Of a stretch of 64,000 bases of DNA, positions 7,842 to 55,567 are shown piece after piece. The position numbers were made by a program, and so were the translations under genes. Where the stretch lies: positions 1 through 64,000 of IMG/VR virus record IMGVR_UViG_3300022841_000015; one strand, given 5' to 3'. This stretch comes from a virus. The stretch's first letter is position 1. Each line of letters starts with the position of its first letter. A model generated the notes under the pieces. That model saw nothing but the letters and a program-made list of their open reading frames with translations, had not been told where the DNA came from and searched no databases.

Positions 7842-7931
7842 TGGCAGAAAGAGAGAGATTTGAACTCTCGGCCCCATTTCTGGGACTTTCCCTTAGCAGG
7901 GGAACGCCTTAAACCACTCAGCCATCTTTCT
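7842..7931 (-). tRNA. tRNA-Ser (anticodon GCT)
   Basis: A 90-base cloverleaf with encoded CCA. Acceptor AGAAAGA pairs with TCTTTCT; the D arm reads GCTGAGTGGTTTAAGGC. Anticodon stem TTCCC/GGGAA encloses loop CTGCTAA (anticodon GCT), a long class II variable arm follows, and the T arm is GAGAG-TTCAAAT-CTCTC. The long variable arm is as expected for serine. Confidence 0.93.
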
Positions 7932-8018
7932 TTAATTTGGGGCTTTACACAAGTTTTTACACTTACTGGTTAAAACACGTTAACCATCCACAGCTATCAA
8001 ACTGTGGGATAAAGCATT
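7932..8018 (-). other. tRNA spacer with two small hairpins
   Basis: This spacer contains two perfect inverted repeats: TGGTTAA...TTAACCA (loop AACACG) and CCACAG...CTGTGG (loop CTATCAAA). No cloverleaf can be drawn. They may be processing sites or the remains of a lost tRNA. Confidence 0.4.
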
Positions 8019-8092
8019 GGTAGCGATAACGGGATTCGAACCCGTGATTTCTAGGTTATGAGCCTAACGCCTTACCACTTGGCTATATCGCA
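8019..8092 (-). tRNA. tRNA-Met (anticodon CAT), possibly Ile2
   Basis: A 74-base cloverleaf with encoded CCA. Acceptor TGCGATA pairs with TATCGCT except for a U-U mismatch at position 1-72. The anticodon loop is CTCATAA, and the T arm is ACGGG-TTCGAAT-CCCGT. The anticodon stem lacks the three G-C pairs of initiator tRNA, so elongator Met or a lysidine-modified Ile(AUA) decoder is likelier than initiator. Confidence 0.9.
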
Positions 8093-8122
8093 AACTGCAC
8101 AGTACTATATTATTTATACTAA

Positions 8123-8196
8123 TGGAAGACCTGTCTGGAATCGAACCAGAATAAAAAGATTCAAAGTCTTTCGCATCACCATTCTGCCACAGGTCT
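8123..8196 (-). tRNA. tRNA-Gln (anticodon TTG)
   Basis: A 74-base cloverleaf with encoded CCA. Acceptor AGACCTG/CAGGTCT is fully paired; D arm GCAGAATGGTGATGC; anticodon stem AAAGA/TCTTT with loop CTTTGAA; T arm TCTGG-TTCGATT-CCAGA. It reads CAA, a frequent codon in this AT-rich genome. Confidence 0.93.
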
Positions 8197-8200
8197 AAAT

Positions 8201-8275
8201 TGGCTCCAAAGGTCGGACTCGAACCTACAACCTTTCCGTTAACAGCGGAATGCTCTACCATTGAGCTACTCTGGA
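8201..8275 (-). tRNA. tRNA-Asn (anticodon GTT)
   Basis: A 75-base cloverleaf with encoded CCA. Acceptor TCCAGAG pairs with CTTTGGA (one G-U pair); D arm GCTCAATGGTAGAGC; anticodon stem TTCCG/CGGAA with loop CTGTTAA; T arm reads GTAGG-TTCGAGT-CCGAC. Confidence 0.93.
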
Positions 8276-12056: not shown

Positions 12057-12076
12057 GTGTATACATTCGTATACAT
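12057..12076 (+). promoter_or_regulatory. Hairpin upstream of the early RNA polymerase gene
   Basis: A perfect inverted repeat TGTATAC - ATTC - GTATACA sits about 20 bases upstream of the polymerase start. The ATTC apex resembles the ATTCC loops at 10650 and 10683, and all lie on the same strand, so it may be a third virion-polymerase promoter. Confidence 0.4.
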
Positions 12077-12095
12077 GTCATGTTTGGAGAACATT

Positions 12096-14102
12096 ATGAA
12101 AAACTTACAACCAGCAGTGTCAGAAAAAGCAGCAATAGATCACACAAATGACAGCTTGAAAACTGCTATGTATTTGATGCTTAGCAACTCTGATTTGGTT
12201 ACAAAGACAGCATTTTACGCTAATGAAGAGTTATACGATGATTGGACAGCTATGGTACACGAATACGTGTTTGATACTTTATTACCGAACAGACTGAAGC
12301 ATGTAATAGCAGCAGTAACTAGCGTAACAAACAGTTGCGATAAGGTATTGCTGAGCACTTTTGTAGGCATGTTGAAGTATAAAAACATGGTTGGGCCATT
12401 AAAGGTTAAGCAAACTGAGGGACAGCTTAAACGTTTTAATATACTGGTGGCTGAATTAGTTACTAGTATACTAATTGACGAAGGCTTGCTTGAAGTACAA
12501 GTAGAAAAAGTTACAACAGCATTAGGTGTTAGAACACATAAGTATGTGACGTTTACTAAACATAATGTCAAAGATGTGTATAAAGGCATTATGGATAAAG
12601 CTGGTGTTGTGCTGCAGAAAGATATTGCTGGGCGTAAGCCTAATAATGCGCAGAAAACTTGTCTTGCATTGTTATCTAGTCAGGCGTATGAACTTCATAC
12701 TGCTCTTAGTCAGGCAGTACTGCACAAGTTTTATACACTTAAACCTGATTGGAACAAGACTCACGATAAGAATGGTAATGAAATTAAATGGGTTGGTGCT
12801 TATAAACGTAAGCATTACAAAGATATGGCAGCGGAAGTAATGGAACTGCAAGATTGCATTTACTATATTGCGCATAAGTTTGACAATCGTTTACGTGTCG
12901 GTCCTGAGGCAAATAGGCTTGAAGGTATTAATCTTCATGGAAAGTCTTTTGAAACTGGACAGCATTGTGCTGCAAACTATAAAGATATAAATGATCAGGC
13001 TTATAGAATGATTGAGCAGCAGTTGTATTCAGCTAGGCATAACCGTGTGACTGTTCAGCAAGCAGTAGATAATTTGTCATCTAATGACTATTTACCTGTT
13101 ACTGAGGACATTATGCTTGCAGCTACTAGCCAGAAGGAAATGGCTAACTTGCACACTGCTAAGAAAGCATTAAAGTCAATGCAACGACACGCTGAAGGCA
13201 AGCCTTGCGGTAATTTATTCGGCTGGGACTTCACGTTCTCAGGTGGCATTATGGCAGGTCTGTTGTTCAAGAGTCCTGAGTTCTTACAGTCAGGTAATCT
13301 TTATGGTGAGGATAAGGTAACTGATGCACATGCTAGGTTTGGTGAGTTATTTGGTCTTAGTGGTATTGATAGAGATACTGTTAAGGATATGCAGCAACCA
13401 GTTATGCATGGTGGTCACATTTCAGGTTTGCTGAAAGTACTAGCAGATCATGGATTTGAGATGTCAGAAGCAGAGGTAAAGAGAGGTCTTACAGGTGTAT
13501 ACGGTGAATGTGTTGGTAATGTAAATATCATTGCTGAGTGGGGTCAAGCGTTAGCATGCAGTGAGTATGCAACAATGACTTGGACTATGCCTGATAACAT
13601 GATTTCAGCACACAAAGCTTACCAAAGTGGTATTGCTGTTGAGAATTATGTTGCATCAGCTACTAGTAAGCGTGGTTATACTCATAATGTACAGCTTAGT
13701 AATTTGCCTTATGAGACTACTAATACTGGTAAACCTTTGTATGCTAAGGAGATGACTATTGGTCATACTAACTATAAAGTTACTACTCATCTGAGAGGAT
13801 TATTTGCCGATATTCTTCATAGTGTAGATGCTTATGTGTTACGTAGAGTAGTGAAAGCTGTTACTGATCAGGGCTATACTATATTGGTTAAGCATGACAA
13901 CTTTTATATTCAACCAGCAGCTTATCCTACTTTAATTAAAGCAGCTAAGAAGGTGTTTAGAGAGTTGCTTCATAGTAATTTGCTGCACAATATACTCACT
14001 GAAATTAGTGAACGGTCACATAAAGAATCTAATGTGCCAGAAATAGTTTATGGCGAAGCTCAAGATTTGATTGAAGAAAGCCATAATTTCTTACTACCAT
14101 AG
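12096..14102 (+). CDS. Single-subunit T7-family RNA polymerase (N4 RNA polymerase II equivalent)
   Basis: A 668-residue protein; ATG 12096 is chosen over an upstream in-frame start because TTGGAGA precedes it. Motif A: FGWDFTFSGG with D378. Motif B: R426-x3-K430-x7-H438-G439, matching T7 R627/K631/Y639 but with His for Tyr. H575-S-V-D578 and motif C VKHDNF (H600-D601) match T7 H784/D787 and H811/D812. An RxR element (DNRLRVG, about 263-269) corresponds to the RGRVY region. N4 RNA polymerase II is a heterodimer of about 269 and 404 residues; here one chain of nearly the summed length does the job. It would transcribe middle genes. Confidence 0.85.
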   Translation: MKNLQPAVSEKAAIDHTNDSLKTAMYLMLSNSDLVTKTAFYANEELYDDWTAMVHEYVFDTLLPNRLKHVIAAVTSVTNSCDKVLLSTFVGMLKYKNMVGPLKVKQTEGQLKRFNILVAELVTSILIDEGLLEVQVEKVTTALGVRTHKYVTFTKHNVKDVYKGIMDKAGVVLQKDIAGRKPNNAQKTCLALLSSQAYELHTALSQAVLHKFYTLKPDWNKTHDKNGNEIKWVGAYKRKHYKDMAAEVMELQDCIYYIAHKFDNRLRVGPEANRLEGINLHGKSFETGQHCAANYKDINDQAYRMIEQQLYSARHNRVTVQQAVDNLSSNDYLPVTEDIMLAATSQKEMANLHTAKKALKSMQRHAEGKPCGNLFGWDFTFSGGIMAGLLFKSPEFLQSGNLYGEDKVTDAHARFGELFGLSGIDRDTVKDMQQPVMHGGHISGLLKVLADHGFEMSEAEVKRGLTGVYGECVGNVNIIAEWGQALACSEYATMTWTMPDNMISAHKAYQSGIAVENYVASATSKRGYTHNVQLSNLPYETTNTGKPLYAKEMTIGHTNYKVTTHLRGLFADILHSVDAYVLRRVVKAVTDQGYTILVKHDNFYIQPAAYPTLIKAAKKVFRELLHSNLLHNILTEISERSHKESNVPEIVYGEAQDLIEESHNFLLP

Positions 14103-40952: not shown

Positions 40953-43900
40953 TTAGTAAAAAACACCCTTAAAAACATTCTCAGGAACTACGCTTCCAAC
41001 TCCAACAGACTCTAACGGCATGTGTGCAATACCACCGTAACGAGTACTCATGTTAAGAACGTTAGCACTAAAGATAGTGTTCATGTTTCCTGTTACATAC
41101 TCTTGTATAACCATTTCAGTAGACAAGTTAACAGGTTTATCTTTAACCATTCTGTAAATAGCTTTCTGTATACGTAACCAGTAAGAAGGAAACATTAGTA
41201 TACCTACGTCGCTTAGCTGTTTAACAGCCATAGGCAAGTTTTCTTTGTAATCAGGAAAAGAGTCAAGTACGTGTATTCGTGCTTGTGAAGGTGTCATTTT
41301 CTCATTCTGAATAGCATGTCTGTACAGAGTTTCTTTAGCAAACACATCAATCCTATCCGTTACACTAGAACCTAATCTTACAATTTCACTATTTGGGCTA
41401 GTAGTAAACTGAGATACATAACCTACAACATCCTCGTCCGTCTTCAATTCCTTAATACGATCAGTAACCATATCAAGTTGCTGTTGAGCACCTTTACCAT
41501 AACCAGATTTACCAACTATCCCGCCAATATGACTTAAGAAGTCCTCACCTTGAAAACCAATCTTATTTAACGTTTTAATAAAATGAGCTACAACATTCTT
41601 ATTACCTTTTCTGTCTGTAAGCATGTACTCAAGTGCTGTTTGAACATCAGCTTGGAATCCAGAAGAAGCATCAGAATTTTTAGCTACAAGATCAGAACCT
41701 AGAGAGTTAATAAAACCTTTGTTACCTAAGTTACCTACAGAAGTATTATCAATCTGAGTTTTTAACGCAGTTATTCTATCCTTTATAGCTTGATTGTCTT
41801 TAGTACCTACTAACCTAACTTTTAGCTGAATAATTTCATTAGTTATATTTTGATACTTATCATAGTCTTTAGATATTTCTAAAAAGTTTTTACCTATAAA
41901 CAATGGTGAAGCACCTGCAACACTTAAGTAAGCTACGTTAGACATAACATCAATAGCCCATTTAGCAGGGTTTACAACAACCATACCTATTTTAGAACCA
42001 GCTGTAAGGTCTTTTACTATTCTCATTGCCCACTTCATGTGGTGATTATCAATAAGCGATTTAGAAAATCCACCTATAAGTAAATGAGACATGTCTTTTC
42101 TTACTAGCGTAATTTGGTCACTAAATTTTACACCGCTAGTTCCTTTTACATCAGAAATTCTACCACCAACTGGTTTGTATCTAGCTCTAATAGACTTGTC
42201 TAATGTGTTGTAAGCTTTGCCATCATCTAGCTTAACAAACCAAGGGTTGTCCATGTTATCAGAATCAACTACTTCTTTTAACTTACCTAGATCTGTATCG
42301 TTTGTAGCAAGAAATCTATTTTCAGACATAACTATGTTATTTCGTATTATCTGAGAATCCTTAATAGCCATGCTGTGTGCTGCACCTCTAACAAGAGTAT
42401 TTACAAAGTCAGTCTCTATACCTAAAGTTTCTTTTTCAGCAGGACTAAGTACTACTTTAAATTTGTTACTTTCAGCTTTAACAACGTTAGAGTAGTTTAT
42501 TTGACTAGCACTAGTTACGTCTACGTCTGTAGAACTCAACTTTATGTCAGTGTATGCTCCACGAAGTTCTGTAGAATCAATAAGCTTTTTGTAAACAATA
42601 CCTAAATTGTCTTTAGTTGGATTTCTTAATACTTTCCAACCTGTTTCTTCACCTATTTCATAAGATCTTAAATCTTTAAGTTCTATAGCTTTTGTTTGAT
42701 GAGATTCTTTGTAGTACTCAGGCAACATACTGTCTCTTAAACCTTCAGTACCTTCTACACCTAGCATAGTAACTCTATTAGCAATACTATTGTCTTTAAC
42801 TAGGTTAACTAAATCAGTTTTAGCTAGGAATGACTCAAATTCTTTATTACCTATTTTTTGTATGGACTTAAGAGCTAATAACTTTCTAATGTCTACACTA
42901 AATGTAGCACTATCTGACATAGCATAAGTAGAAGCTAAGTTGTACAATTTGCCACCTTCTTTAGTACCTGCCTCAGTTTCTACAGTACGTTCTACGTTAC
43001 GTTCAATTAAGTGATCTACATCTCTAATAGCAGACTTACTAACTTTTTTTATTTCAGTCTCTAACCGGGTTACTTCAGCGTCTATTTGACTGCTTGTAGT
43101 AATGTCACTAGCAAACACAAAGTAATCATGTAGCGGTAATTGAGTTACAAACCTGCCTATAGTACTAACCTCATCTTTAGACACACCAGTAAGTGCTTTT
43201 TTAAACTCACTTTTTTGAAAAGCAATAGAAGAAATTTGCTGACCTTCCAGTAAAGCTGAATCAGCTAACAAATCTGCCTTGTTAACTTTATTAGTACCTT
43301 CACCAGTAATAGTTTGAACTAAACCTTGAAGTGCTTCAGACCCTTCGTAAATGCCGGATAATTTATCAGCAGCATCACTATAAAGAGGAAACAACCTTTT
43401 CATGTTTTTGTCTAAAGTGTTTAATAAACGTTTACCTTTTCTTTCAATTTTACTGTTAAGCATACTAGATACAGCAGCATTTAAATAACGAAGTGAAGCT
43501 TTGTCTTGCATATCAGCAGCACTAGTTGTTTGTCTATTTTTTCCAGAAAACAAAACTGTTTCAAATTGTTTTTGCATATCTGTAATAAAGTTTATGTCTT
43601 CTTCTCTTTTACTTTTTCCTGAAACAATAACACCATTAATAGCAGAAAATAACTTTTCAGCATTAGGATCACCAATTTTAAAATCAGCGTAAGTAACATT
43701 ATTAATAATAGTTATTACTTTATTTTTGACAAATTCTAATACTTTAGCTAATTTATTTTTAGAAGTGTTATTTAGTGAACTGTACACTTCAGCAGCTACA
43801 TCAGGTTCTGAATTCATAATAGCAATAAATTCAGATAACATAGTTTCTTGTGAAGAATTTATATCAATGTAATCCATTCGTTCTTGAGTTTTATTACTAA

Positions 43901-46900
43901 AAGTTTTTCTTAAAACATGATTCATAGTTTTATCTATGTAAGCCATGTTTAAGTCTAATTGAGTACTGGTACCACTAGTTTTATTAGCAAATCTTTTAAC
44001 CCAATCAATTACAACTCCTGCTGTAAAACTGTGAACTATTTCATGTTCAATAAGTTCTATTCTAGTTTTACGATCAGTAGAATTTTCTGAAATAACTACA
44101 GTATCAGTTTCAGTATCAAATTCAAATTCTTCACCTATTCTTACATTAGAACTGTTAGATCCTTCAAGAAAACTTTTAATAATAGGTGATTCTTCTTTGT
44201 ACTGCTCTAATATAGTTTCTACGTCTGTAAGTGACTCAGTAGCTGTTTCTGGCTCACTAGCAGTTGTAGTAGTATTAGGAGCAGCATTATCAAATGCGTC
44301 CTTCATAGCTGAATTAGAAGGGTTAGCAGTAGCAGGTTCAGCATTAGGAACAGTAGCAGTCTCAACTTCTGTATTAGCATCAGCACCAGCAAACTCTCTG
44401 GCTTTTATACTGTTACCAATAAGAGCGTTAGTCTTCATGTTCATTCTTTCACTGTTAGCTATTTTAGCTTTAGCAGCTACTCTTGCATCAATCTTTGCTT
44501 TAAGTTTAGTAAACTTATCTGACTTAGCTAGTGCAGGATCATAAAACTCAATAGAGTTTAGTACTTGTTGATGAGTGTCATACTCACCTAAAAGTCTTTT
44601 ATTTAATCTTACGTAAGCTTCTTCTACAAGGCGTACAGTCTCTGTTGTGCCAATTATCTGATCGTGTACGACAATTGCACCGCTATCACCTAGGACTTCG
44701 TTTATAGCGTGATACATAAGCCCAGAGTCTATTCCGTGTATAACAGACACATCCATTATAGATTGAAACAGTTCTTGTTTACGTGTTAGTACTGTGTGGC
44801 CACCTTCTTTAGCTAGGTCACTATCTCCGGTTAAAGGACTAGATACTTCAACAATTTTTGTAAGAGGCATACCATAAGTTTTAACTTGGTCAATACCAAT
44901 ACCATCTAATACAGCTCCAAAAGGAAGTACTTTCATTCTATGGTTATCTTTAACTTGAGTAGCTAAATTATAAATGTCAGCACCATCTTTTCTAAAGTCT
45001 TTTAGGTAAGCTTCGTAAATTTCTGCCTGCATTATTTCATACAGTTGTTTAGGAACACCTTTAGTAATAAGAGCAGATTTAATATTAGAGTACAGACCTG
45101 ATATGTCTTTTAAATCTTTACTGTCAGCATTTTTAAGACTTGGTGAATCCATTAGGTCACCTAAGTAATCTCTAATGTTTTCGTCAGCTAGGTTGTCTAT
45201 AATACGTTTAGCTAGGGTGTCAGCCATAGATTTAACAGCTCCTTTAGGTCCCTGTCCGTATATAAATACCATAGTAGGATCTTTAGCAAAGGCTCTTTCA
45301 CCTTCTTTAGTACCACCAAATAACAAGTTTAAAGTAGTTTGTAATAATTCTCTTACGTTGCCTTGGCCTATGTCTGGTGACATAACTAAACTGTCTTTTT
45401 TATTAATAAACCTGCTAGTAGCATCTGACATAAGTGCGTAAACGTCATCTATTTTATTTTCGTCTAGTACTAAATTTCCATCTGCATCTGTAATAATACC
45501 TATGCTTTCCATAAACGTTTCTACATTGGCGTTAGTTCCTAATGCTTGTTGAAATGTTAATGTACCACCCTGTGCTGTAGCGTCAGCTGAATCCATAAGC
45601 TCAGTTTGTAAAGTGTCACCAGTATTATCTCTAATATCTTGAACACCTTTTAAAGTTACTAACAATGCTGCGTAGTCTACGCCTTGAAATCTTTCAGGTA
45701 GGTTACTTAAAGCTACTATTTTACGTTGCAGAGTTTTTGCATTTTCGTAACTTTTAAAGTCTTGTAAAGCAGCATCTAGATTAGCATTGCCACCTTCTAC
45801 AATTTCTTTATAAGTCAGTTCTTTATCATCTAGTGTTTCTTTAATGCTGTACACAAGACGGTTAAAATCAAAAGACTTTACTTTAACTGACTGAGTACCA
45901 CTAGTAAGCATGTGTCTGCTTTGTTTAGATGCATGAGCGTTTAACACACTGTTATCGTAGTAAAGTCTTATGTTTCTACCACCTTTCATTATCATGTGCA
46001 GTTCTTCAGGATTACCTTCAGAATTAACAAGCTGGTTATAAGTTTCTATAATATCGTCTAAAGGTACTGTTTTAGATAAGTTTTGACCACTAACACTTTC
46101 TTGCCTATCAACAGAGTGATCATCAGAAGTTTTAATTCCAAATAAAGACTTAATCATTAAAGGTTTATTTTTAAACTTGTCAGTTAAAAGTTTTGTAGCT
46201 GACTCACCTGTTTTGTCAGTTTCTTCTTTAATAAGTGCAAATAAATCATGTACTGTGTTATTTACGTAAAGAGGATTATCAAATAATTTCTGTCTAGCAC
46301 TTTGTGTACTAGGAGATTGAACATTACCATCAGGATCACTTTGAGCTACATCAACTGAACCGTCCTGTTTACCTGTGTAAGGCATAGTAATATTAGATGG
46401 CTGTGTCACATGTCTTACAACAGATAACGTGTCTACTATGGTACCTAGTTCGGTACCGCTTAAGTCAGCTGCAGTTCTATTAAGAAAATGAGATGACTCC
46501 TGAGACAAAGTATCAGTAAGTTTACCGGAAGAACTAACTTTGTATTTAGAAATGCCTAGTTTACTTGTATTTAAAGAAACACTTTTAGCATTTGTTGTTG
46601 TAATTTTCTTTGACTCAAAAGTTTGTGTTATAGCTTCACTGTCAGTGTAATCACGAATAGTAGTTACATCATCATGAAAATTTACATAGCCTTTTTCTTC
46701 AAGTAGCTCTAGTGCTGCTATACCTTGAGTGTAATAAAGTTGCTCAATTTCTGCTGCAGTCTTAGGACTTTCTTCCATAGACTTGTATCTAGCTTGGTTT
46801 TTGTACATCCATTTACGACCAATACTAGCAGCTAGCCTAGACAATGGTAGTACTGGAAGTATTCCATCTACAGACAATTGACTCATTTGTACGTCATTAT

Positions 46901-47264
46901 TACGTGCTTTGTCAGACTCACCTTTAACTGCTTCCATAACTTCATGAAGTGCTATAGCTTTTGAAATACTGTCTTGATCTACATTATCGTTGTCTATACC
47001 AATAATATCTTCTTTAAAAGTATCAGCTTTTTGACCAGAATTTAATATTCTTGTAAGAGCATTCTCTATTTTTAAAAGAGTAGGTTTAGATTCATCTTTA
47101 CCCGGAAGTCCTTCAACACTATTAGTATTTACAAGTCTGTGAACATCTTCAGGTGTAATATTCCATACATTAAAACGCATGTTTTTTTCTGTATTAGGAT
47201 CTATTTCTACACCATTAAATTCTTGAATGTATTTTAAATATAGTTCTGGTGAAGGACAGGACAT
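40953..47264 (-). CDS. Virion RNA polymerase (N4 gp50-type) with HExxH metalloprotease-like segment
   Basis: A 2103-residue protein, last gene of the late operon as in N4. T7-family motifs in the first half: RNIRLYYDNSVLNAHASKQS (430-449); motif A SADATAQGG (D561, D-x4-G); motif B R657-x3-K661-x7-Y669-G670, the spacing of T7 R627/K631/Y639; H843-G-I-D846; motif C IVVHDQ (H867-D868). It is much shorter than N4's ~3500 residues. Residues 1069-1080 (IEHEIVHSFTAG) hold HExxH (H1074-H1078), with a downstream LSEFIA glutamate like a gluzincin third ligand. It would be injected with the DNA and transcribe early genes. The C-terminal ~800 residues are helical. Confidence 0.85.
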   Translation of the reverse strand: MSCPSPELYLKYIQEFNGVEIDPNTEKNMRFNVWNITPEDVHRLVNTNSVEGLPGKDESKPTLLKIENALTRILNSGQKADTFKEDIIGIDNDNVDQDSISKAIALHEVMEAVKGESDKARNNDVQMSQLSVDGILPVLPLSRLAASIGRKWMYKNQARYKSMEESPKTAAEIEQLYYTQGIAALELLEEKGYVNFHDDVTTIRDYTDSEAITQTFESKKITTTNAKSVSLNTSKLGISKYKVSSSGKLTDTLSQESSHFLNRTAADLSGTELGTIVDTLSVVRHVTQPSNITMPYTGKQDGSVDVAQSDPDGNVQSPSTQSARQKLFDNPLYVNNTVHDLFALIKEETDKTGESATKLLTDKFKNKPLMIKSLFGIKTSDDHSVDRQESVSGQNLSKTVPLDDIIETYNQLVNSEGNPEELHMIMKGGRNIRLYYDNSVLNAHASKQSRHMLTSGTQSVKVKSFDFNRLVYSIKETLDDKELTYKEIVEGGNANLDAALQDFKSYENAKTLQRKIVALSNLPERFQGVDYAALLVTLKGVQDIRDNTGDTLQTELMDSADATAQGGTLTFQQALGTNANVETFMESIGIITDADGNLVLDENKIDDVYALMSDATSRFINKKDSLVMSPDIGQGNVRELLQTTLNLLFGGTKEGERAFAKDPTMVFIYGQGPKGAVKSMADTLAKRIIDNLADENIRDYLGDLMDSPSLKNADSKDLKDISGLYSNIKSALITKGVPKQLYEIMQAEIYEAYLKDFRKDGADIYNLATQVKDNHRMKVLPFGAVLDGIGIDQVKTYGMPLTKIVEVSSPLTGDSDLAKEGGHTVLTRKQELFQSIMDVSVIHGIDSGLMYHAINEVLGDSGAIVVHDQIIGTTETVRLVEEAYVRLNKRLLGEYDTHQQVLNSIEFYDPALAKSDKFTKLKAKIDARVAAKAKIANSERMNMKTNALIGNSIKAREFAGADANTEVETATVPNAEPATANPSNSAMKDAFDNAAPNTTTTASEPETATESLTDVETILEQYKEESPIIKSFLEGSNSSNVRIGEEFEFDTETDTVVISENSTDRKTRIELIEHEIVHSFTAGVVIDWVKRFANKTSGTSTQLDLNMAYIDKTMNHVLRKTFSNKTQERMDYIDINSSQETMLSEFIAIMNSEPDVAAEVYSSLNNTSKNKLAKVLEFVKNKVITIINNVTYADFKIGDPNAEKLFSAINGVIVSGKSKREEDINFITDMQKQFETVLFSGKNRQTTSAADMQDKASLRYLNAAVSSMLNSKIERKGKRLLNTLDKNMKRLFPLYSDAADKLSGIYEGSEALQGLVQTITGEGTNKVNKADLLADSALLEGQQISSIAFQKSEFKKALTGVSKDEVSTIGRFVTQLPLHDYFVFASDITTSSQIDAEVTRLETEIKKVSKSAIRDVDHLIERNVERTVETEAGTKEGGKLYNLASTYAMSDSATFSVDIRKLLALKSIQKIGNKEFESFLAKTDLVNLVKDNSIANRVTMLGVEGTEGLRDSMLPEYYKESHQTKAIELKDLRSYEIGEETGWKVLRNPTKDNLGIVYKKLIDSTELRGAYTDIKLSSTDVDVTSASQINYSNVVKAESNKFKVVLSPAEKETLGIETDFVNTLVRGAAHSMAIKDSQIIRNNIVMSENRFLATNDTDLGKLKEVVDSDNMDNPWFVKLDDGKAYNTLDKSIRARYKPVGGRISDVKGTSGVKFSDQITLVRKDMSHLLIGGFSKSLIDNHHMKWAMRIVKDLTAGSKIGMVVVNPAKWAIDVMSNVAYLSVAGASPLFIGKNFLEISKDYDKYQNITNEIIQLKVRLVGTKDNQAIKDRITALKTQIDNTSVGNLGNKGFINSLGSDLVAKNSDASSGFQADVQTALEYMLTDRKGNKNVVAHFIKTLNKIGFQGEDFLSHIGGIVGKSGYGKGAQQQLDMVTDRIKELKTDEDVVGYVSQFTTSPNSEIVRLGSSVTDRIDVFAKETLYRHAIQNEKMTPSQARIHVLDSFPDYKENLPMAVKQLSDVGILMFPSYWLRIQKAIYRMVKDKPVNLSTEMVIQEYVTGNMNTIFSANVLNMSTRYGGIAHMPLESVGVGSVVPENVFKGVFY

Positions 47265-50200
47265 TAAATTTTACACCTTGGATTTAGTTTAGTATAAAGA
47301 GCTTCAGCTTTTTTCTTGTCAGAAATAACTTGTGAAGGTTCATTATCAAATGATTCTGTCATAACTACCTCTGTTTGTACATCAGGAAAAGCTTGTTCAA
47401 ATGCACTAAGTATTTCAGGGTACTTATCTAAAGAAGTAAAATTTCTTAGTAAGTTTTTAACTTCAGCAATATTAGTATAACCAGCTTCTTTAAGTTTTGT
47501 AATTATTTTAGGTAACGTAGGAGTAATTGTAGTAGAAACAATTGCTTGTTTAGAAGGACTATCTTCAACAGAAGCAATTATACTATCAAATGAACTTAGT
47601 TGTTTATTTATAGTGTCACGTTTCTTTTGTACTTCTGGTGTTACTTCAACAGTTTTTATTTCTTCAACAGCAGCTTCCTGTTTTGTAGAAGGAGTAGGTT
47701 TAGGACTAGGAGCAGCAGGTCTTTTAGGACCTACAACATTTTCTTTCTTTTCTGGTCCAACAACTAATTCTTTAGCAGCAGTAGCAGTATCTGTAACTGT
47801 TTTAGCAACTGAGTTGTAAGCATTTTCTAACTGTTTATCAAATTTAGCCATACCTTCTTCAGTTTCAAGATTAGGCATATCAGGCATATTAGGTAAGTCA
47901 GGTAAAAATTCCTTAACTTTTTTTGTAAAATCTTTAGAACTTTCTGAGTCTAAAAGACTTATCAATTCTTTTGTTGATTCAGCATTTTTAAAATACTCAA
48001 CTAAACCTTTAGATTTAATATTTTTAGACAACTCAGCTATTTTAGCTTTAGCTTCTGTTCTAACAGGTTTACGTATTTTATTTGATTCTAGTTTTAACTT
48101 GTTAGTAAGTACACCTAGACTAACTTTGTTTTTGCCTTTTTTAACTGAATCAAGTTCTTTGTATTTATCTAGGGCAGCCTCAACAATTTCTAAAGAAGGT
48201 AAATCTGCTACTTTGCCATTTATTGTATCTGAAACAAGTTTAAATACAGAGTCTGCTCCATTTTCTGAAAGAGCTGGACCTTTAGCAATATCTTTTAGCT
48301 CTGGCTTAATATTGTCTATAGTTGTTAAAGTATCGTTACTTTGACCTATATTTTTTAAAGCTTGTTTTTTATTAGCAAGAGTTTTCTGTAATTTCTTGGC
48401 TAGGTCCGGGTGTTTTTTATCAATAACAGATATTACTTTTGTAAGATCGTTTATTTCCATATCTTTAACAGCAGCTAAAACAGTATTAGAAGACTTAATT
48501 CCGTTTCTAAGACCTAACTCTATAACACCTCTAGCAGTACTAGATTCTAGATTTTTAACAATTTCTACACTTGCTGTACCAAGTGCAGTAACAGTTTTAA
48601 CTAAGTTTTCTACAGGAACATTTTTTAGAAGTTTTTTAGCTTTTTCAGTACTTTTGTTTACAACATTAGTACCTACTTTGCTTACAACTCTTCCTACACT
48701 AGTTGCCATTAACTCTGTTTTTACAAGAGCTTGATCACTTCTAAATTGACTAATTAACTTAGTTTTTATAGAGTTAAATTGTTTTGGATCAGCAGCAGCT
48801 TCAGTAGTTATGTTCCCATTAGTTTGTATTTTTATGGTTTCTACACCTACTACGTCATCAGCTAGTAAGTCATCAATAGTTTTAGCATTTAAAACAGTGT
48901 CAATATTTTTTTCTTTGCCTGCTATTTCTTTATCTGCTATAGCTGTTCTTGCTGTTTCAGATTCAGACAATACTGCACGATCTGTTTCAGACAATAGTTC
49001 AAAACTTGCTTTAGTAAGTGCATCTTGACTTATTTCTTTAACTTTTTTACCACCTCTTACAGCAACACCTGCAGTTCCTACAACAGTGTCTAAAGCTGCA
49101 CCAGCAACAACTCCCGGAGCAACAGTAGCACCTTTAACACCACCGCCTACCATAGCACCTACTAAAGCAGAGTAGTTGGCTTCATCTATATTACCTTCTT
49201 CATTAAGTTCATCTAAAGCAGACCTAATAGAAAAGTCATCCATCTTAGCTTGTAGTATTGAATGCCAAGTTTGTAAATATTCTAGTGTTGCTTCTAATCC
49301 GCCAACAGCAGACACTTTTACAGCAGCTTTTAGTACTCTTTTAGCAACTTCTACACTGTATTTTTTAGGTATAGGAGACAATGCTTTTGAAATGTCTTTT
49401 GCATATTGTTTAGTAGCGTTTTTAGCAACTGTAACACCTGCTATAGATGGCAAAGCACTCATAAATATAGCTCTATCAAACATCATAAGTGCTAAAGCAG
49501 CAGGAGCATTAACTAATTTGTGCATAACTGAAGACGCTTCACCATTTTCTTTAATGTAAGCTTCTTCATTTTGTTGTAATACAGCAGCAGTTGATAAACT
49601 TACTTGACTAGCTTTTTTACCAACAGACTTAGTAGCAGCTAGTGCTTTTTGTAATACGTTTAATTTTACACCTGCATCTTTAGCAGCTACTGCATCAGTA
49701 ACAGCATCTGATATATCACCTATTGCATTAGCACCACGAAAAAGCTTTTTACCAAGCATAGGTAAACCACCAATACCAGCAGTACCAAGAGTACCAGCAA
49801 TGCCTGACGCTATTGTTCCAGTTAAACTGTCTACAGCTAGTTCTGGAAGTACTTTTGCAGTTGTACTTATAGCGTCTATTACATTACCTGCTGCGTCTAA
49901 ATACTCACCTTCTCTTAAACTTATTCTAGCGTTAGCTAAACTGTTTATGCCTGAAGATGCTGCTTCATTAAGCTCTTGCCTTACCGTGGCTCTAACGTTA
50001 CTTCTAACGTCAGCTTCTTCCATTAGATTAGGGTTAGATTCTCCTGAAGCAATATTTTTTATGTTGTTAAATTCTCTATCAACAGCAGCAGTACCTAATG
50101 AGTACAAGTCATTAGCAAAACTAGTACTATTTGCAAGACCACCATTAAATCTGTCTATGTTGTTAGCTTGTTCTTCAGACACAGGAGTAACTTTAGGTTC

Positions 50201-50323
50201 AGGTGTAAGCTTTTGTTGCTTACTTGCTATTTTGTCTTTTAAAGAATCAATTTTCATGTCCAATAAAGAAGACGAGTAGTCTACCTGATAAGCATTTCCA
50301 GCATTTCTAAATATTTCAGACAT
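47264..50323 (-). CDS. Internal virion / ejection protein
   Basis: A 1019-residue protein. Residues ~145-430 are rich in alanine, glycine and valine with several hydrophobic stretches (LTGTIASGIAGTLGTAGIGG, ALALMMFDRAIFMSALPSIA, VVAGAALDTVVGTAGVAVRG); the rest is helical and lysine-rich. This looks like a protein that inserts into the host envelope during DNA ejection. It ends in TAATG with the virion polymerase gene, so the two may be injected together. No enzymatic motif seen. Confidence 0.65.
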   Translation of the reverse strand: MSEIFRNAGNAYQVDYSSSLLDMKIDSLKDKIASKQQKLTPEPKVTPVSEEQANNIDRFNGGLANSTSFANDLYSLGTAAVDREFNNIKNIASGESNPNLMEEADVRSNVRATVRQELNEAASSGINSLANARISLREGEYLDAAGNVIDAISTTAKVLPELAVDSLTGTIASGIAGTLGTAGIGGLPMLGKKLFRGANAIGDISDAVTDAVAAKDAGVKLNVLQKALAATKSVGKKASQVSLSTAAVLQQNEEAYIKENGEASSVMHKLVNAPAALALMMFDRAIFMSALPSIAGVTVAKNATKQYAKDISKALSPIPKKYSVEVAKRVLKAAVKVSAVGGLEATLEYLQTWHSILQAKMDDFSIRSALDELNEEGNIDEANYSALVGAMVGGGVKGATVAPGVVAGAALDTVVGTAGVAVRGGKKVKEISQDALTKASFELLSETDRAVLSESETARTAIADKEIAGKEKNIDTVLNAKTIDDLLADDVVGVETIKIQTNGNITTEAAADPKQFNSIKTKLISQFRSDQALVKTELMATSVGRVVSKVGTNVVNKSTEKAKKLLKNVPVENLVKTVTALGTASVEIVKNLESSTARGVIELGLRNGIKSSNTVLAAVKDMEINDLTKVISVIDKKHPDLAKKLQKTLANKKQALKNIGQSNDTLTTIDNIKPELKDIAKGPALSENGADSVFKLVSDTINGKVADLPSLEIVEAALDKYKELDSVKKGKNKVSLGVLTNKLKLESNKIRKPVRTEAKAKIAELSKNIKSKGLVEYFKNAESTKELISLLDSESSKDFTKKVKEFLPDLPNMPDMPNLETEEGMAKFDKQLENAYNSVAKTVTDTATAAKELVVGPEKKENVVGPKRPAAPSPKPTPSTKQEAAVEEIKTVEVTPEVQKKRDTINKQLSSFDSIIASVEDSPSKQAIVSTTITPTLPKIITKLKEAGYTNIAEVKNLLRNFTSLDKYPEILSAFEQAFPDVQTEVVMTESFDNEPSQVISDKKKAEALYTKLNPRCKI

Positions 50324-50329
50324 AGTTAG

Positions 50330-52336
50330 TTACTTACCTTGTTCTTCTAATAAAAGTTTCAAGTATTCTGCTTGTTGTTTTTCAGCTCCTGATTTAGGTT
50401 TAAAATCTTTTAGTTTTTGATCACCTGTTCTAAGAGCTTCTAATAACTGTTTAATTTTATCTTCATCAACTTTACTTTTTAAATCTCGAAGTTTTTGGAG
50501 TTTTACATTGCTTGCAGTTTTTTCAGCTTTTTCTTGAGCTTGTTCAAAATTAAAATTTTGTAGTCTAAAATCAGTACCATTAGGGTTAGTTCTTTCAGGT
50601 CGATCTCCAGCACTGTAGTTAAAAATAGAAGTATCTTTATACTTAGGATTTTTTGCGTCTACTTCACTTAAACCTTTTTGAGCTGCAGCTTTTTCTGCTT
50701 CAGTACTATTAGGGTCTAATGCTATAGCTATAAAACCTCTTTTATCAGCAGCAACTTTTTGAGATTTAACTTTTGCTCTAGCCTCTAATTCTTTAGCTTT
50801 TGTAGTTATTTCTTTAGTTTTAAGTTCAGGTGTGTACGTATTACCGGGACCAGAAAGTATTCTATTTTCAGCAGGTGTAATATCTCTTTCTTTTGTGCTA
50901 ATAGGAGCTTCTACAGGTTCTTCAACATCATCACTAGTATCTATTTCATCTTCAGAAATTATAGGCTTAAGCTTAATTTTAGGCTTAGTTTTAGGTTTAT
51001 TTCCACCTAGTTTAAAGTCTCTACTAACTCCTGTTTGTTCTTCAATAAACTTTTGAGCTTGTTTTTGTCTTTCTTCAGAAGTAGTAGCTTGCTGTATAGA
51101 ATTTTTTAATATTTTGTTAATAGAGTCATCGTACTGAGAAATTAAACTATTATATAGAGACTGTTGTTGTTGAAATTTTTGATCATTACTTTCACTACCA
51201 CCAATTTTTCTACTGCTAGAAGCTTCTTGGTTTTGTTGAGCACCTAGTGCAATAGCAGCCATAGTATCATCGTTAGACATCATATCTGATATGTCTTTGC
51301 TAAACGTACCATCACCATTTATTAATTTTAAAGCTCTCATAGCTCTAATAGTGGCTGCTGGTCCAACTTTAGATTGAGACTGACTAGCAGCAACTATAGT
51401 TTGTAAATCATCTATAGACATATCAGGAGAATTTAAAGGAAATAAACCAAAAAATGTTTCAGGAGTAAGTGCTTCACTGATCCATTTTATAGCACCTTTA
51501 CTTTGAGGAACATTTAATGTTTCTGAAATATCTTTAAAAGCATCAGCATTTTCTTTTTGACTTATAGAACCAGTTTTAAATGCGTTAGTTCCAATATTAG
51601 TAGTATTACTATTTCCTGAGTTGCTAAATATTTTGCCAGCAAAATTTAATCTATTTTCAGCATTTTTACTTAATCTTTCTTGACTTTTAACATCTAACAC
51701 ACTGTAATTTTCAGTAGCTGTTTGTTGCATTTGTGCTATTTCTGTTTCACTTAGACCAGCTTCTCTTGCTAAAGCAGCTACATCTGATTTTATTTTAGCA
51801 GGGTCTTGATACAGTCTAGGGTTATCAATCATATTTTGGATAAACCCATCCATAAGATCATCTTTTCTTTTATAACCATCTACTTGATTTAGATTTATAG
51901 AAGTATTTCTTCCACCGTCACTAATAGTTCTTGTACCAGAAGTTTGTGTTTGGTAACCCGGAGAATTAAATATAGCTTGTTTTGTGCCTTGTTCCATCTC
52001 AAAAGAAGGCTGCATATCTTTAGCTTGTTGAATTAAATTGCTCATAGCTAAATTTTTATCTATACCTCTTTGTTTTTCTAAATCAAAAATACGTTGTTCT
52101 TCAACTACAGCTCTTTGACCTTCGTTTTCACGAAAATTTTGTTGTCTTTCAAAATTGGCTTGTTGTTGCATAACAGCATTTTGCTCAAGCTGTGCATTTC
52201 TAGCTTCTTGCATTTGTGCATTTATACTAGCAAGACCTTTTTGAGAACTCTCAATAGAACGTGCAGCGTTAGCAAAAGCTTGGTTAGAGCCACTAAAGTT
52301 AGGATTTATTCTAGATCTAAAAAGTTCACCAGCCAT
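50330..52336 (-). CDS. Glutamine-rich helical structural protein
   Basis: A 668-residue protein. The N-terminal third is a glutamine-rich coiled coil (ARSIESSQKGLASINAQMQE, AVMQQQANFERQQNFRENEG); the C-terminal third is lysine- and glutamate-rich with a PKTKPKIKLKP linker. Position among virion genes suggests an internal core or ejection component. No family recognised. Confidence 0.55.
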   Translation of the reverse strand: MAGELFRSRINPNFSGSNQAFANAARSIESSQKGLASINAQMQEARNAQLEQNAVMQQQANFERQQNFRENEGQRAVVEEQRIFDLEKQRGIDKNLAMSNLIQQAKDMQPSFEMEQGTKQAIFNSPGYQTQTSGTRTISDGGRNTSINLNQVDGYKRKDDLMDGFIQNMIDNPRLYQDPAKIKSDVAALAREAGLSETEIAQMQQTATENYSVLDVKSQERLSKNAENRLNFAGKIFSNSGNSNTTNIGTNAFKTGSISQKENADAFKDISETLNVPQSKGAIKWISEALTPETFFGLFPLNSPDMSIDDLQTIVAASQSQSKVGPAATIRAMRALKLINGDGTFSKDISDMMSNDDTMAAIALGAQQNQEASSSRKIGGSESNDQKFQQQQSLYNSLISQYDDSINKILKNSIQQATTSEERQKQAQKFIEEQTGVSRDFKLGGNKPKTKPKIKLKPIISEDEIDTSDDVEEPVEAPISTKERDITPAENRILSGPGNTYTPELKTKEITTKAKELEARAKVKSQKVAADKRGFIAIALDPNSTEAEKAAAQKGLSEVDAKNPKYKDTSIFNYSAGDRPERTNPNGTDFRLQNFNFEQAQEKAEKTASNVKLQKLRDLKSKVDEDKIKQLLEALRTGDQKLKDFKPKSGAEKQQAEYLKLLLEEQGK

Positions 52337-52343
52337 TATATTA

Positions 52344-52808
52344 TTACCCTATTGCACTACCATCTACATTAGCTGCTTTAGCTCTTGCCATTCGGTCTAT
52401 ATATTCTTGACTACCAGCTTCCACACTATTTAATGCTAAACCATTACGAGTTCTTTCCATAAGATCTGCATTATAAGAAGTTGCATTATTAGCAAGACTT
52501 CTATTCATACCAGCTAGCTCAATACCAAACTGTTTTTTTCCTTGCTTACGCATTTGGTGAGCATTATACATACCATATAGGCTACCTAAACCTTGAGCAG
52601 CTAACCCAAAGTTTTGAAATCCATTTAAAGATTCTGGTGCTTTTGGGTAATTTTGATCACCCATTAAAACACCATTACCTGCATTCATTCTGTAGTCTTG
52701 TGGTTTATAACTAAAATCGTCATAGGAAGCTGCTAAACTAAATTCTTTAGCAGGGTCGTATATTTGTGTTGTTGTAGGAATTTTGAAATTACTGTAAGTT
52801 TCACCCAT
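52344..52808 (-). CDS. Small structural protein
   Basis: A 154-residue protein. Polar N-terminus with Tyr/Phe repeats (YDDFSYKPQDYRMNAGNG), a middle NFGLAAQGLGSLYGMYNAHQ segment and a helical C-terminus. Its order between two internal virion genes resembles T7 gp14-type or N4 small internal proteins. Tentative. Confidence 0.5.
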   Translation of the reverse strand: MGETYSNFKIPTTTQIYDPAKEFSLAASYDDFSYKPQDYRMNAGNGVLMGDQNYPKAPESLNGFQNFGLAAQGLGSLYGMYNAHQMRKQGKKQFGIELAGMNRSLANNATSYNADLMERTRNGLALNSVEAGSQEYIDRMARAKAANVDGSAIG

Positions 52809-52825: not shown

Positions 52826-55567
52826 TTAAACTACACCTAAAGTTAAGGCGTTTTTATGATAGTTGCCCACTACTGTACCATAATCATACATGCTAGAATA
52901 GTTGTATTGTATTGGTCCAGCCATAAACCTATATGTGTCAGGACTATTAAGAAAAGCTAGGTAGGTTGGGTCTAATCCATTTTCTTGTGCTTCTATTAAT
53001 CTAGCTAGTTCTTGTGACCTAATATCAAATTGATTATTTATTTCTAGCATCTCTGCTTGAAGCTCTAGTATATCTGCATTTATATCAGCTACTATCATAT
53101 TACTAAACTGTGTGACGCTTTGTGTAATAACAGCAGGATCACTCATACCTGTTGAACCTGAACCAGTTTGGCTAGTTAAGTAAGCAGCACCAGCAGCAAC
53201 AACTACTTTTAAAAATTCACTATCTATACTAGATATTATAGCAATTGCTATAGAAATAATAACATAATTAGCTAATGCAACCTGAAAAAAAGCAGCTAAA
53301 GATAGTTTTGTAGGGTCAAAAGTTATCAGAGTGTAAACTATTAGTACTATTTCTAGTAAATCTGCAAACGCTGAAGTTTCATACCAAGCCACTTCAGTTA
53401 TCTGTACAGAATAAAAATTCATCCTTAAAGCTAGGGTGTACAACTGTAGTTGTTCAACTGGAGTTAAACTATCAATAGAAAAATGAGACAACAGTATAGA
53501 AAAGTTATCATCCCCTAGTTTACTAAGGCTCATGTTTTCTTGCCCATTACCTAAAATAAACTCTATACCAGACATGTTTGTTAATACAATTGTAGAACAA
53601 GAAGTAGTAGACACCTGTTTTCTCATAGTAAGAGTGTTTACGTTAGTTACAGTATGGCTGTAAGTACCAATTGGACCTGAATCAAATATGGTAGTAGAAG
53701 CATTTTGTGTAGACCATACTACAGCTCGTTTTACATTTTGTTCTAAAAACGTAGCATAATACCCTTGGTTGTCTACTGTTGTATTAAAATCAACAGCTTC
53801 TGTAATTACTAATGTATAAAACATCTCATAAAGAATTTTAGAAACTACTGTTGCTGTATCAGTAGGGTTTACAGCGAAGGATAAAAATCCTTCTGATATA
53901 CCAGCAATATTAGGGTTAGCTTCTATTTGTTGTATTATGTCGTTAAACTCTAAGTCTAAAGTACCTAATAGCCCTACTATACCATCATAGTTTTCTTGTC
54001 CTACACTAACTACACTGGCAGAAACTGTGTTAGACCTAAGTATACCAATAGGCATAAACTCTAAGTTACTTAAACTACTGCTTACCATTTTAACATCAGG
54101 GTAAGTATTACTACTTATGTCATACACCCAATATTTCCATTCAGCAATTTCGTCAATATAGTAAGTAACAATTACATAAGAAATAATTCTATAAGCAGGT
54201 CTAGTAATCACACTAGTCAAAGTTTCTGTTAAAGGAGATGGCATATTAGTGTTATCTGTGTCTACAGGGTTAGCAACACTATAAGTAATAGTAGTTGATA
54301 TGCTGTGTTTTCCTTCAGCTAAAGCGGTAGCTTCAAAACTGTCTTGTGTAGAGATACTTTCTATACTTACAACCATAGTAACAGAGGAACTTAACAAGTT
54401 TACTGTTTCCGGGGTTATAGTAAAACCTAAACCTGTACCACTAGAAGAAATTTGGTTTATGGTAGTTCCTGCAGAAGCATCACCACCAGAACTTGTCACT
54501 GTAAAAGTTATTACATTTCCGTCTACATCTACACTATCTACTGTTAACACATCATCATTGTCCAAAGTTATTGTGTCTAATGCACTGTAGAAATTAGTAC
54601 TGTCGCTTCCAGAACTAGAGTACGAACCATTACTGCCAGAATCATCGTAGTTTGCCTCTGTTTGATCTTCTAACAAGGTATATTCATAAGGTAATGAGTT
54701 TGCTTCAGTACTAATAGTAAAGTCTGTGTACGATGTACCAGCTAGCAATACTACAGTATCAACTGAGGTAAAATGGGTACCGTTTGTAGCTGTTCCTGTG
54801 TAACTTAAATTAACTGTGACAGTTTTGTTAGCAGGTATAAGTCTATCGACACTAACTGTGTACATTAGTGTGTTATCTCCTTGAACTACTTCTGAATAAC
54901 CAGATAAATAAAACGTAGCAGTTTCTCTTAGTCTCTGTACTGTTAATTGGTAGTTATTAGCTCCTGCATTGTACGTAACAGCAGATAAAAAATAGCTATC
55001 GAAAGTACCGTACTCGTCACTAAAAGTTAATGTATTAAGATGGGGAAGATAACTATAAACATTTTGTAAATAGTGTTTAAAATAAACTTCTTTTGTAGGG
55101 TACTTTTGTACTGCACTAGTAATATTAACTGTGTAACCAGTTATAGAAAACAAAGCATTAATAACAGCAGATTGGTCTATAGTATTTTTACGTACATTTG
55201 TTGTAGGTAAAGCATAAGGATACTCACCTTCTTCTGCGTAATTGTAGTAACCGTCTATTTTTCCTTGAGCAACTTTAGTGTACTTATTAAACGGAGATAT
55301 TAATGCAATAGCAGAATTTTTTGTGTACTCAAGTGCTATTTTAACTAACGCATCTTCTTCTAGATCTGTAGTTGAAGGATAAACTTTCTGTGAAACATGT
55401 TGTACTTGTACTACGGTCTCATCTTCGATACCAAATATACCTACTACAAATTCCAGTAAAGGCATAACAATATCATCCCATACTGTTTCTACAGCCTCTA
55501 CTACTCCTTCAACAACATCTTCTACTATGTCTATTATATCTTCAATAATTTCTACAACAGCACCCAT
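52826..55567 (-). CDS. Large structural protein with Calx-beta-like domain
   Basis: A 913-residue protein. The N-terminal ~50 residues form an acidic amphipathic helix with EDIIDIVEDVVEGVVEAVET. Residues ~228-290 (KTVTVNLSYTGTATNGTHFT, then TVVLLAGTSYTDFTISTE) match the Calx-beta pattern. A threonine/serine-rich beta region follows, and hydrophobic helices lie at about 770-830 (LSLAAFFQVALANYVIISIA). A mixed adhesin-like and membrane-active virion protein. Function not known. Confidence 0.55.
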   Translation of the reverse strand: MGAVVEIIEDIIDIVEDVVEGVVEAVETVWDDIVMPLLEFVVGIFGIEDETVVQVQHVSQKVYPSTTDLEEDALVKIALEYTKNSAIALISPFNKYTKVAQGKIDGYYNYAEEGEYPYALPTTNVRKNTIDQSAVINALFSITGYTVNITSAVQKYPTKEVYFKHYLQNVYSYLPHLNTLTFSDEYGTFDSYFLSAVTYNAGANNYQLTVQRLRETATFYLSGYSEVVQGDNTLMYTVSVDRLIPANKTVTVNLSYTGTATNGTHFTSVDTVVLLAGTSYTDFTISTEANSLPYEYTLLEDQTEANYDDSGSNGSYSSSGSDSTNFYSALDTITLDNDDVLTVDSVDVDGNVITFTVTSSGGDASAGTTINQISSSGTGLGFTITPETVNLLSSSVTMVVSIESISTQDSFEATALAEGKHSISTTITYSVANPVDTDNTNMPSPLTETLTSVITRPAYRIISYVIVTYYIDEIAEWKYWVYDISSNTYPDVKMVSSSLSNLEFMPIGILRSNTVSASVVSVGQENYDGIVGLLGTLDLEFNDIIQQIEANPNIAGISEGFLSFAVNPTDTATVVSKILYEMFYTLVITEAVDFNTTVDNQGYYATFLEQNVKRAVVWSTQNASTTIFDSGPIGTYSHTVTNVNTLTMRKQVSTTSCSTIVLTNMSGIEFILGNGQENMSLSKLGDDNFSILLSHFSIDSLTPVEQLQLYTLALRMNFYSVQITEVAWYETSAFADLLEIVLIVYTLITFDPTKLSLAAFFQVALANYVIISIAIAIISSIDSEFLKVVVAAGAAYLTSQTGSGSTGMSDPAVITQSVTQFSNMIVADINADILELQAEMLEINNQFDIRSQELARLIEAQENGLDPTYLAFLNSPDTYRFMAGPIQYNYSSMYDYGTVVGNYHKNALTLGVV

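Follow-up and report, generated by a model that had tools for sequence, protein, structure and literature searches.

An N4-type virion RNA polymerase that appears to be split into two genes, with one terminal cysteine on each side of the junction

The DNA analyzed here, called the window, is a stretch of 64,000 nucleotides (positions 1 to 64,000 of IMG/VR record IMGVR_UViG_3300022841_000015) that forms part of a 65,148-base phage record. A gene at 40953 to 47264 on the minus strand encodes a 2103-residue virion RNA polymerase (vRNAP) related to gp50 of Escherichia phage N4, and it consists of an RNA polymerase (RNAP) domain and the C-terminal domains C1 and C2 but has no N-terminal domain (NTD). 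An earlier note, made from the letters alone, had described a gene of this length and position as an N4-type vRNAP much shorter than the 3500-residue N4 protein, and the gene, its identity, and the difference in length were all borne out, the strand being an addition of ours. Directly upstream lies a gene called U (47264 to 50323, minus strand) for a 1019-residue protein that is predicted to be almost all helical, and the U stop codon and the vRNAP start codon, which are in different frames, overlap by one base in the sequence TAATG (47262 to 47266, minus strand). The two genes probably encode the parts of a single polymerase, and each product carries one cysteine beside the junction.

The RNAP domain spans approximately residues 1 to 945 (44430 to 47264, minus strand), as delimited by invariant catalytic columns and by mapping to N4. 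In an alignment of 37 vRNAPs, composed of 18 short proteins and 19 long ones trimmed of the NTD, residues R433, D561, R657, K661, and D868 were invariant (37/37), so that this part of the catalytic motif set listed in the earlier note held, whereas H843 was not conserved in long vRNAPs. A profile alignment of the 18 short with the 19 long proteins (probability 100%, E value 1.4e-48, 1836 columns) was colinear with N4 residues 1049 to 3500, and the window chain therefore appears to start at about the place where the N4 RNAP domain starts. In the profile alignment, R433, D561, K661, Y669, and D868 fell on N4 residues 1421, 1556, 1667, 1675, and 1948, which, after subtraction of 997, are R424, D559, K670, Y678, and D951 in the published mini-vRNAP numbering and are named in PMC2784036 (papers are cited here by accession and for the accessible portions of their text). 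The catalytic residues of the T/DxxGR, A, B, and C motifs are thus present in the window vRNAP, and the motif ExDGxxxG was absent from 18/18 short vRNAPs aligned. The best family match was PHROG 2206, virion RNA polymerase (E value 9.4e-21); Pfam gave nothing above its cutoffs, phmmer and hmmsearch with the window vRNAP family found no match in the PDB, and one scan of genome contigs found no relative. Full-length relatives were found in two isolated Alteromonas phages, PT11-V19 and R22Y (identity of 29.5% across 99%), and in IMG/VR contigs, and 20 loci, the window included, carry complete vRNAPs of 1884 to 2142 residues. Homology and gene neighborhood suggest that the window vRNAP is packaged in the virion and ejected.

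Downstream of the RNAP domain lies a segment that the earlier note had taken for an additional HExxH part and for the sign of an unusual polymerase-protease fusion. A cryo-electron microscopy preprint divides N4 vRNAP into the NTD, a low-complexity linker (residues 907 to 1006), RNAP, a linker (2102 to 2123), C1, and C2, and reports a conserved HExxH within C1 (2124 to 2375) (PMC12633501). Window residue 1000 aligned with N4 residue 2126, which places C1 at approximately residues 1000 to 1250, its end being uncertain (43515 to 44267, minus strand), and HEIVH (H1074 to H1078; 44031 to 44045, minus strand) was placed by the profile alignment on N4 H2228 to H2232 (H2228, E2229, and H2232). Both HEIVH and the glutamate of the EFIA motif, E1145 (43830 to 43832, minus strand), are real and downstream of the polymerase, as had been claimed, and H1074, E1075, H1078, and E1145 were invariant in eight short vRNAPs (alignment A3); as a sequence pattern only, this is a gluzincin-type HExxH with a downstream glutamate. 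E1145 is a candidate third metal ligand that MAFFT places on the glutamate of an NEF motif in N4 but that the profile alignment places off it.

The HExxH motif was present in 28/28 vRNAPs of a first sample (19 long and 9 short, two of the short ones nearly identical), after residue 1700 in 95/96 nonredundant long vRNAPs, and in 19 of the 21 vRNAP open reading frames (ORFs) from the complete split loci described below. The two exceptions are L038, in which the region is deleted, and L062, which belongs to a three-piece case as the RNAP piece, the motif being on the C-terminal domain (CTD) piece. L038 (9001 to 14655) encodes an 1884-residue vRNAP without the C1 HExxH region and is a natural C1-deletion variant. 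A glutamate followed by a hydrophobic residue lay 40 to 110 residues beyond HExxH in 90/95 long vRNAPs, a loose pattern without a chance control. We reject an added HExxH protease as the distinctive feature of the window protein because the motif is nearly universal in the family and sits in the known C1 of N4. These comparisons suggest that the HExxH-bearing C1 is an old part of vRNAPs, nearly universal but dispensable, since L038, Alteromonas phage AD45-P1, and L076 have no HExxH.

We consider it doubtful that HExxH marks an injected protease acting on virion proteins, on itself, or on a target in the host, a possibility raised in the earlier note. The spread of HExxH with a downstream glutamate, and its invariance in A3, make a metal site plausible across the family, but the motif is not special to the window phage, some vRNAPs do without it, and recombinant N4 vRNAP showed no degradation (PMC12633501). 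An AlphaFold2 model of residues 985 to 2103 (17 sequences, mean predicted local distance difference test [pLDDT] score of 65.6) assigned HExxH and E1145 to two different helices at modest confidence (pLDDT about 60 to 78 around these residues), and no zincin appeared among the structural matches listed, the alignments of which reach C2 and barely cover C1. We conclude that C1 with its HExxH is a standard vRNAP part and possibly a metal site.

C2 follows at approximately residues 1251 to 2103, its start being uncertain (40956 to 43514, minus strand). Residues 354 to 1049 of the AlphaFold2 model aligned to residues 2726 to 3434 of N4 vRNAP structure 9pnr (VIA-align Z of 14.1, 418 residues aligned, root mean square deviation of 19.6); the second N4 chain, 9pnt, had a Z of 13.8, and the next structure had a Z of 6.4. 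As the deviation is large, the arrangement of parts differs. Foldseek matches in the PDB at an E value of 0.001 or better were confined to 9pnt and 9pnr (E value 1e-9, TM score 0.23; next match 1.4e-2), and the match to N4 was colinear with the sequence profile alignment, so the model argues for an N4-type C2 fold. Long-helix pore-forming toxins and transporters were among the structures ranked below the N4 chains and were taken as common arrangements.

The part of N4 gp50 that the window chain lacks has a counterpart in size and place next door. In 21/21 complete split loci, a gene for 911 to 1248 residues sits between the gp51-position gene and vRNAP and ends −13 to +16 bp from the vRNAP start. 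In 19 phages with long vRNAPs, N4 among them, the next upstream ORF encodes 285 to 832 residues and either is gp51 or occupies the gp51 position (KPP21, the gene of which runs over the record start, was not used among the 19). The 21 loci leave out copies (L003, L008, L011, L012, L051, L053, L058 to L061, L064 to L066, L068, and L069) and N-terminally incomplete cases (L035 to L037, L042 to L044, L048, L052, L054, L055, and L057); they include L045 and L049, which were omitted from some alignments and from the tree. L063, which holds U only, is outside the 21 but was used in the U alignments, including the 20-sequence comparison that follows.

Alignment by hhalign of 20 U proteins with 83 nonredundant long-vRNAP NTDs gave a probability of 96.1% (E value 3.1e-9, score 93.2), with U profile columns 1 to 713 on NTD columns 4 to 703. 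Among the controls, a reversed profile gave 0.3%, 20 block shuffles scored at most 62.0, and gp51, C2, and RNAP profiles gave 0.2%, 0.3%, and 0.1%; a smaller first comparison had given 96.4%, with column shuffles at 0.1% or less. U of the window contains a stretch rich in T, P, E, and K before its end, as in the N4 linker, and the window split falls where N4 has its flexible linker between NTD and RNAP. U was rejected as a gp51 homologue (hhalign 0.2 to 0.5%). In the window, the gp51-position protein is a separate product of 668 residues without cysteine (50330 to 52336, minus strand), and because the proteins at the gp51 position in the split clade had no match to gp51 (hhalign 0.1%), they are named by position only. 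We conclude that a vRNAP split into two genes, with U as the separately encoded NTD, is well supported by the sequence comparisons, and that the window vRNAP is most likely short because its NTD is encoded directly upstream and not because it is a compact polymerase. With its NTD homologue in a separate gene, the window protein is filed as a split variant and not as a canonical gp50.

The two chains share a second property. The only cysteine of the window vRNAP is Cys3 (TGT, 47256 to 47258, minus strand), and the only cysteine of U is Cys1017 (TGT, 47273 to 47275, minus strand), 2 residues from the end of the 1019-residue protein. Exactly one cysteine, 0 to 5 residues from the C terminus, was found in U at 21/21 split loci, and vRNAP had a cysteine within residues 2 to 8 at 21/21 and no other at 19/21, the exceptions being L007, with two near the start (one if an inner ATG is used), and L062, the three-piece case. 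At the ends away from the junction, cysteines were found at the U start in 0/21 and at the vRNAP end in 1/21, again the three-piece case. Window ORFs of at least 200 residues average 0.63% cysteine, from which about 6 would be expected in U and about 13 in vRNAP. The vRNAPs of N4-like phages have been reported to be free of cysteine, which was suggested to aid passage (PMC3715699, PMC2784036, and PMC3915230) and explained as avoidance of disulfides during transit through tail and periplasm (PMC3715699 and PMC3915230). In agreement, 86 of 96 nonredundant long vRNAPs had no cysteine, and there were 12 cysteines in 337,188 residues, one of which (in EcP1) precedes the annotated start; others near N termini may do so too. 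Both TGT and TGC are used for the junction cysteines, and overlap with a ribosome-binding site was rejected as the cause of the terminal cysteine codon of U because several loci have no overlap and because it cannot explain the vRNAP cysteine. Among the literature matches listed, which leave most subscription journals uncovered, none described a vRNAP in pieces with cysteines at the cut ends, or vRNAP pieces or other ejection proteins linked by a disulfide, and we regard the terminal-cysteine pattern of split vRNAPs as a new observation.

One way in which the pattern could arise is if the cysteines join the two chains across the cut. U and the RNAP-C1-C2 chain would be translated separately from the overlapping genes, with U as the counterpart of the membrane-associated NTD of N4 gp50. 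Once virions meet an oxidizing environment, either when the cell has lysed or in the periplasm as ejection proceeds, the terminal cysteine pair would form an interchain disulfide. The bond would restore a covalent beads-on-a-string arrangement, as proposed for N4 vRNAP (PMC12633501), and U and the polymerase would move together. On arrival, the reducing host cytoplasm would break the bond; as the isolated N4 NTD enters membrane nanodiscs (PMC12633501), reduction would free the polymerase from membrane-bound U. We consider it probable that the vRNAP is such a two-chain protein, coupled by a disulfide for ejection and reduced in the host cytoplasm.

Several observations weigh against this proposal, some concerning the bond and others the identity of U. 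All support for the disulfide comes from sequence, and the bond could instead give U-U or vRNAP-vRNAP homodimers. The bacterial cytoplasm is reducing, and the disulfide could therefore form only late. Ten of the 96 long vRNAPs do contain cysteine, one or two per protein (in L176 at residue 2388), and the unsplit proteins of L163, L166, Ab2712, and 1238A have cysteines in midchain or towards the C terminus. The gp51-position protein of L040 has a cysteine. Finally, L152 (4907 to 12559) encodes a 2550-residue vRNAP without NTD that has a single N-terminal cysteine, Cys7, and HExxH at residue 1431, and no NTD gene was found in its 75.9-kb record by a profile search run without a positive control. 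Alternatively, the split could be real and the terminal cysteines could serve in homodimers, attachment to another part of the virion, a shared metal site, or a noncovalent contact. One cysteine per chain and the presence of several vRNAP copies in the N4 virion (4 ± 1; PMC12633501) leave room for such roles, but new cysteines occur on both sides of each junction, including those between RNAP and CTD described below, and not at other ends. Moreover, of the 20 gp51-position proteins listed for split loci, some of which are truncated by a contig edge, 19 lack cysteine, so other disulfide partners would be few. We consider these other roles unlikely and favor the disulfide between U and the polymerase.

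With regard to U, its homology to the NTD is remote by sequence. In the smaller first test, block-shuffled NTD profiles gave probabilities of up to 50.5%, and when NTD subsets were compared with U, the Vibrio-type subset gave 96.0% and the other three were weak (27.4%, 9.2%, and 0.3%). No match was found by hmmsearch of U against long vRNAPs or by tblastn of U in phages, and Pfam and PHROGs gave none at a useful level. The AlphaFold2 model of U was poor (pLDDT 57) and had no significant structural match; in a viral fold search with it, the best E value was 0.068, and a piece of the Vibrio phi50-12 vRNAP had an E value of 0.25. A simple hydropathy scan found a hydrophobic stretch above the 1.4 threshold in only 13/21 U proteins. 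These results would suit a vRNAP that had simply lost its NTD beside an unrelated ejection protein, but the profile match is colinear from the first residues and scores above all controls, and U has the size and place of the missing domain and a linker-like end. We therefore consider an unrelated gene to be very improbable and retain U as the separately encoded NTD.

Splits were also found elsewhere in the polymerase. In IMGVR_UViG_3300010392_000731, the vRNAP is cut again between RNAP and C1, making three genes in all. The 1003-residue RNAP piece has Cys3 and Cys1000, and the 1280-residue CTD piece, beyond several other genes, has only Cys6, with HExxH at residue 274. The RNAP and CTD pieces lie at L062, 11520 to 14531, and L041, 8308 to 12150, and the genes between them include ones for 751, 595, and 413 residues. 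AD45-P1 encodes a protein of 2495 residues with its only cysteine at 2493, followed by one of 1409 residues with its only cysteine at 4, a break labeled in GenBank as a potential frameshift; a survey concatenated the ORFs, presuming a calling error or read-through (PMC10654107). Isolates P1 to P4 of AD45 have the CTD half at 99.7 to 100% and carry the same label. In the clade split between RNAP and CTD (L075, which is the AD45-P1 record, L076, L077, L078, and L080), there was a single terminal cysteine on each side in 5/5, the upstream pieces of L077 and L078 being cut at the 5′ end by a contig edge, and the cut lies 480 to 564 residues after motif A; in N4, the RNAP domain ends 546 residues after that motif.

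These five were the accepted splits among 11 short complete ORFs, the rest being L141, L152, L159, L106, L223, and L195. L159 is a copy of pSb-1, the starts of L106 and L223 are no more than about 210 bases from a contig edge, and the start of L195 looks out of frame. L141, a visibly frameshifted contig, looked split with terminal cysteines and was excluded because it is broken inside domains, where its ORFs overlap out of frame; it shows that frameshift artifacts can mimic the pattern. The pSb-1 vRNAP, in three ORFs without cysteine and with one break inside C1 just after HExxH, was taken for a sequencing error; the same record shows two adjacent SSB ORFs. Despite such cases and the assumptions made for AD45-P1, we give almost no credence to the view that the pieces are one protein, whether interrupted through errors in sequencing or made whole by frameshifting or stop read-through, because the 21 and 5 loci have their own starts, the AD45 isolates agree, single terminal cysteines flank the accepted splits, and the gap between U and vRNAP takes all three values modulo 3 among loci, so no single frameshift or read-through generally joins the pieces, each of which has its own ATG.

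A tree of the C-terminal region was built quickly by maximum likelihood from 75 rows, L141 included, with support from the SH-like approximate likelihood ratio test only. In it, the window clade formed one side of a branch (support 100) and the group split between RNAP and CTD formed another (100). The latter group shared a fork of support 84 with long vRNAPs, and the three-piece case was inside the window clade, next to L038. Tree placement and the different cut sites indicate at least three separate split events. We lean, by a modest degree, towards a history in which the vRNAP was split at least three times near flexible linkers and gained cysteines on both new ends, giving a disulfide-coupled train of two or three cars that would be uncoupled in the cytoplasm, with the polymerase freed from its membrane anchor.

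Compared with known systems, N4 gp50 (Schitoviridae) has the same RNAP catalytic residues, C1 with HExxH, and C2, and N4 has the same gene order, gp53-gp52-gp51-vRNAP. In the window, the assignments are by position, with a 154-residue gp52-position protein without cysteine (phrog_2646; 52344 to 52808, minus strand) and a 913-residue gp53-position protein with one cysteine (phrog_2220; 52826 to 55567, minus strand). N4 differs in having one cysteine-free chain of 3500 residues that includes the NTD, whereas the window has two chains with one terminal cysteine each. Alteromonas phages vB_AmeP_R22Y and vB_AmeP_PT11-V19 share the split and the terminal cysteines, with vRNAPs of 2083 and 2082 residues that are about 30% identical to that of the window; the paper on R22Y describes a large, 2083-residue vRNAP, and no mention of a split or of cysteines was found in the accessible text (PMC11705849). 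Alteromonas phage vB_AmaP_AD45-P1 likewise has a split vRNAP with one terminal cysteine on each side of the junction and differs in being cut between RNAP and CTD, while the window is cut between NTD and RNAP.

The window also encodes another single-subunit RNA polymerase, a single 681-residue chain (12057 to 14102, plus strand), with phrog_2051 at residues 362 to 604 and phrog_414 at 573 to 662; as N4 RNAP II consists of two subunits (PMC2784036), it may be a fusion. Four tRNA genes stand in a row (Ser, Met, Gln, and Asn; 7842 to 8275, minus strand). The same vRNAP locus genes, at 100% identity, recur as L003/L008 in a 198,785-bp viral record with one U copy (IMGVR_UViG_3300022843_000001), which, set against the 65,148 bp of the window's own record, is either a larger genome or a chimeric contig.

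A survey of these polymerases dropped proteins of fewer than 2500 residues and required the motif ExDGxxxG (PMC10654107), and discarding short vRNAPs while concatenating separated ORFs would miss the viruses with split vRNAPs. The split phages keep the no-cysteine rule except at the cut, where exactly one disulfide has apparently been placed. If this is true, the coupling of ejected proteins would be under redox control, and neither the NTD nor the CTD would need to share one polypeptide with the polymerase. The order and mechanics of vRNAP ejection would then become testable with the isolated phages R22Y, PT11-V19, and AD45-P1 to P4.

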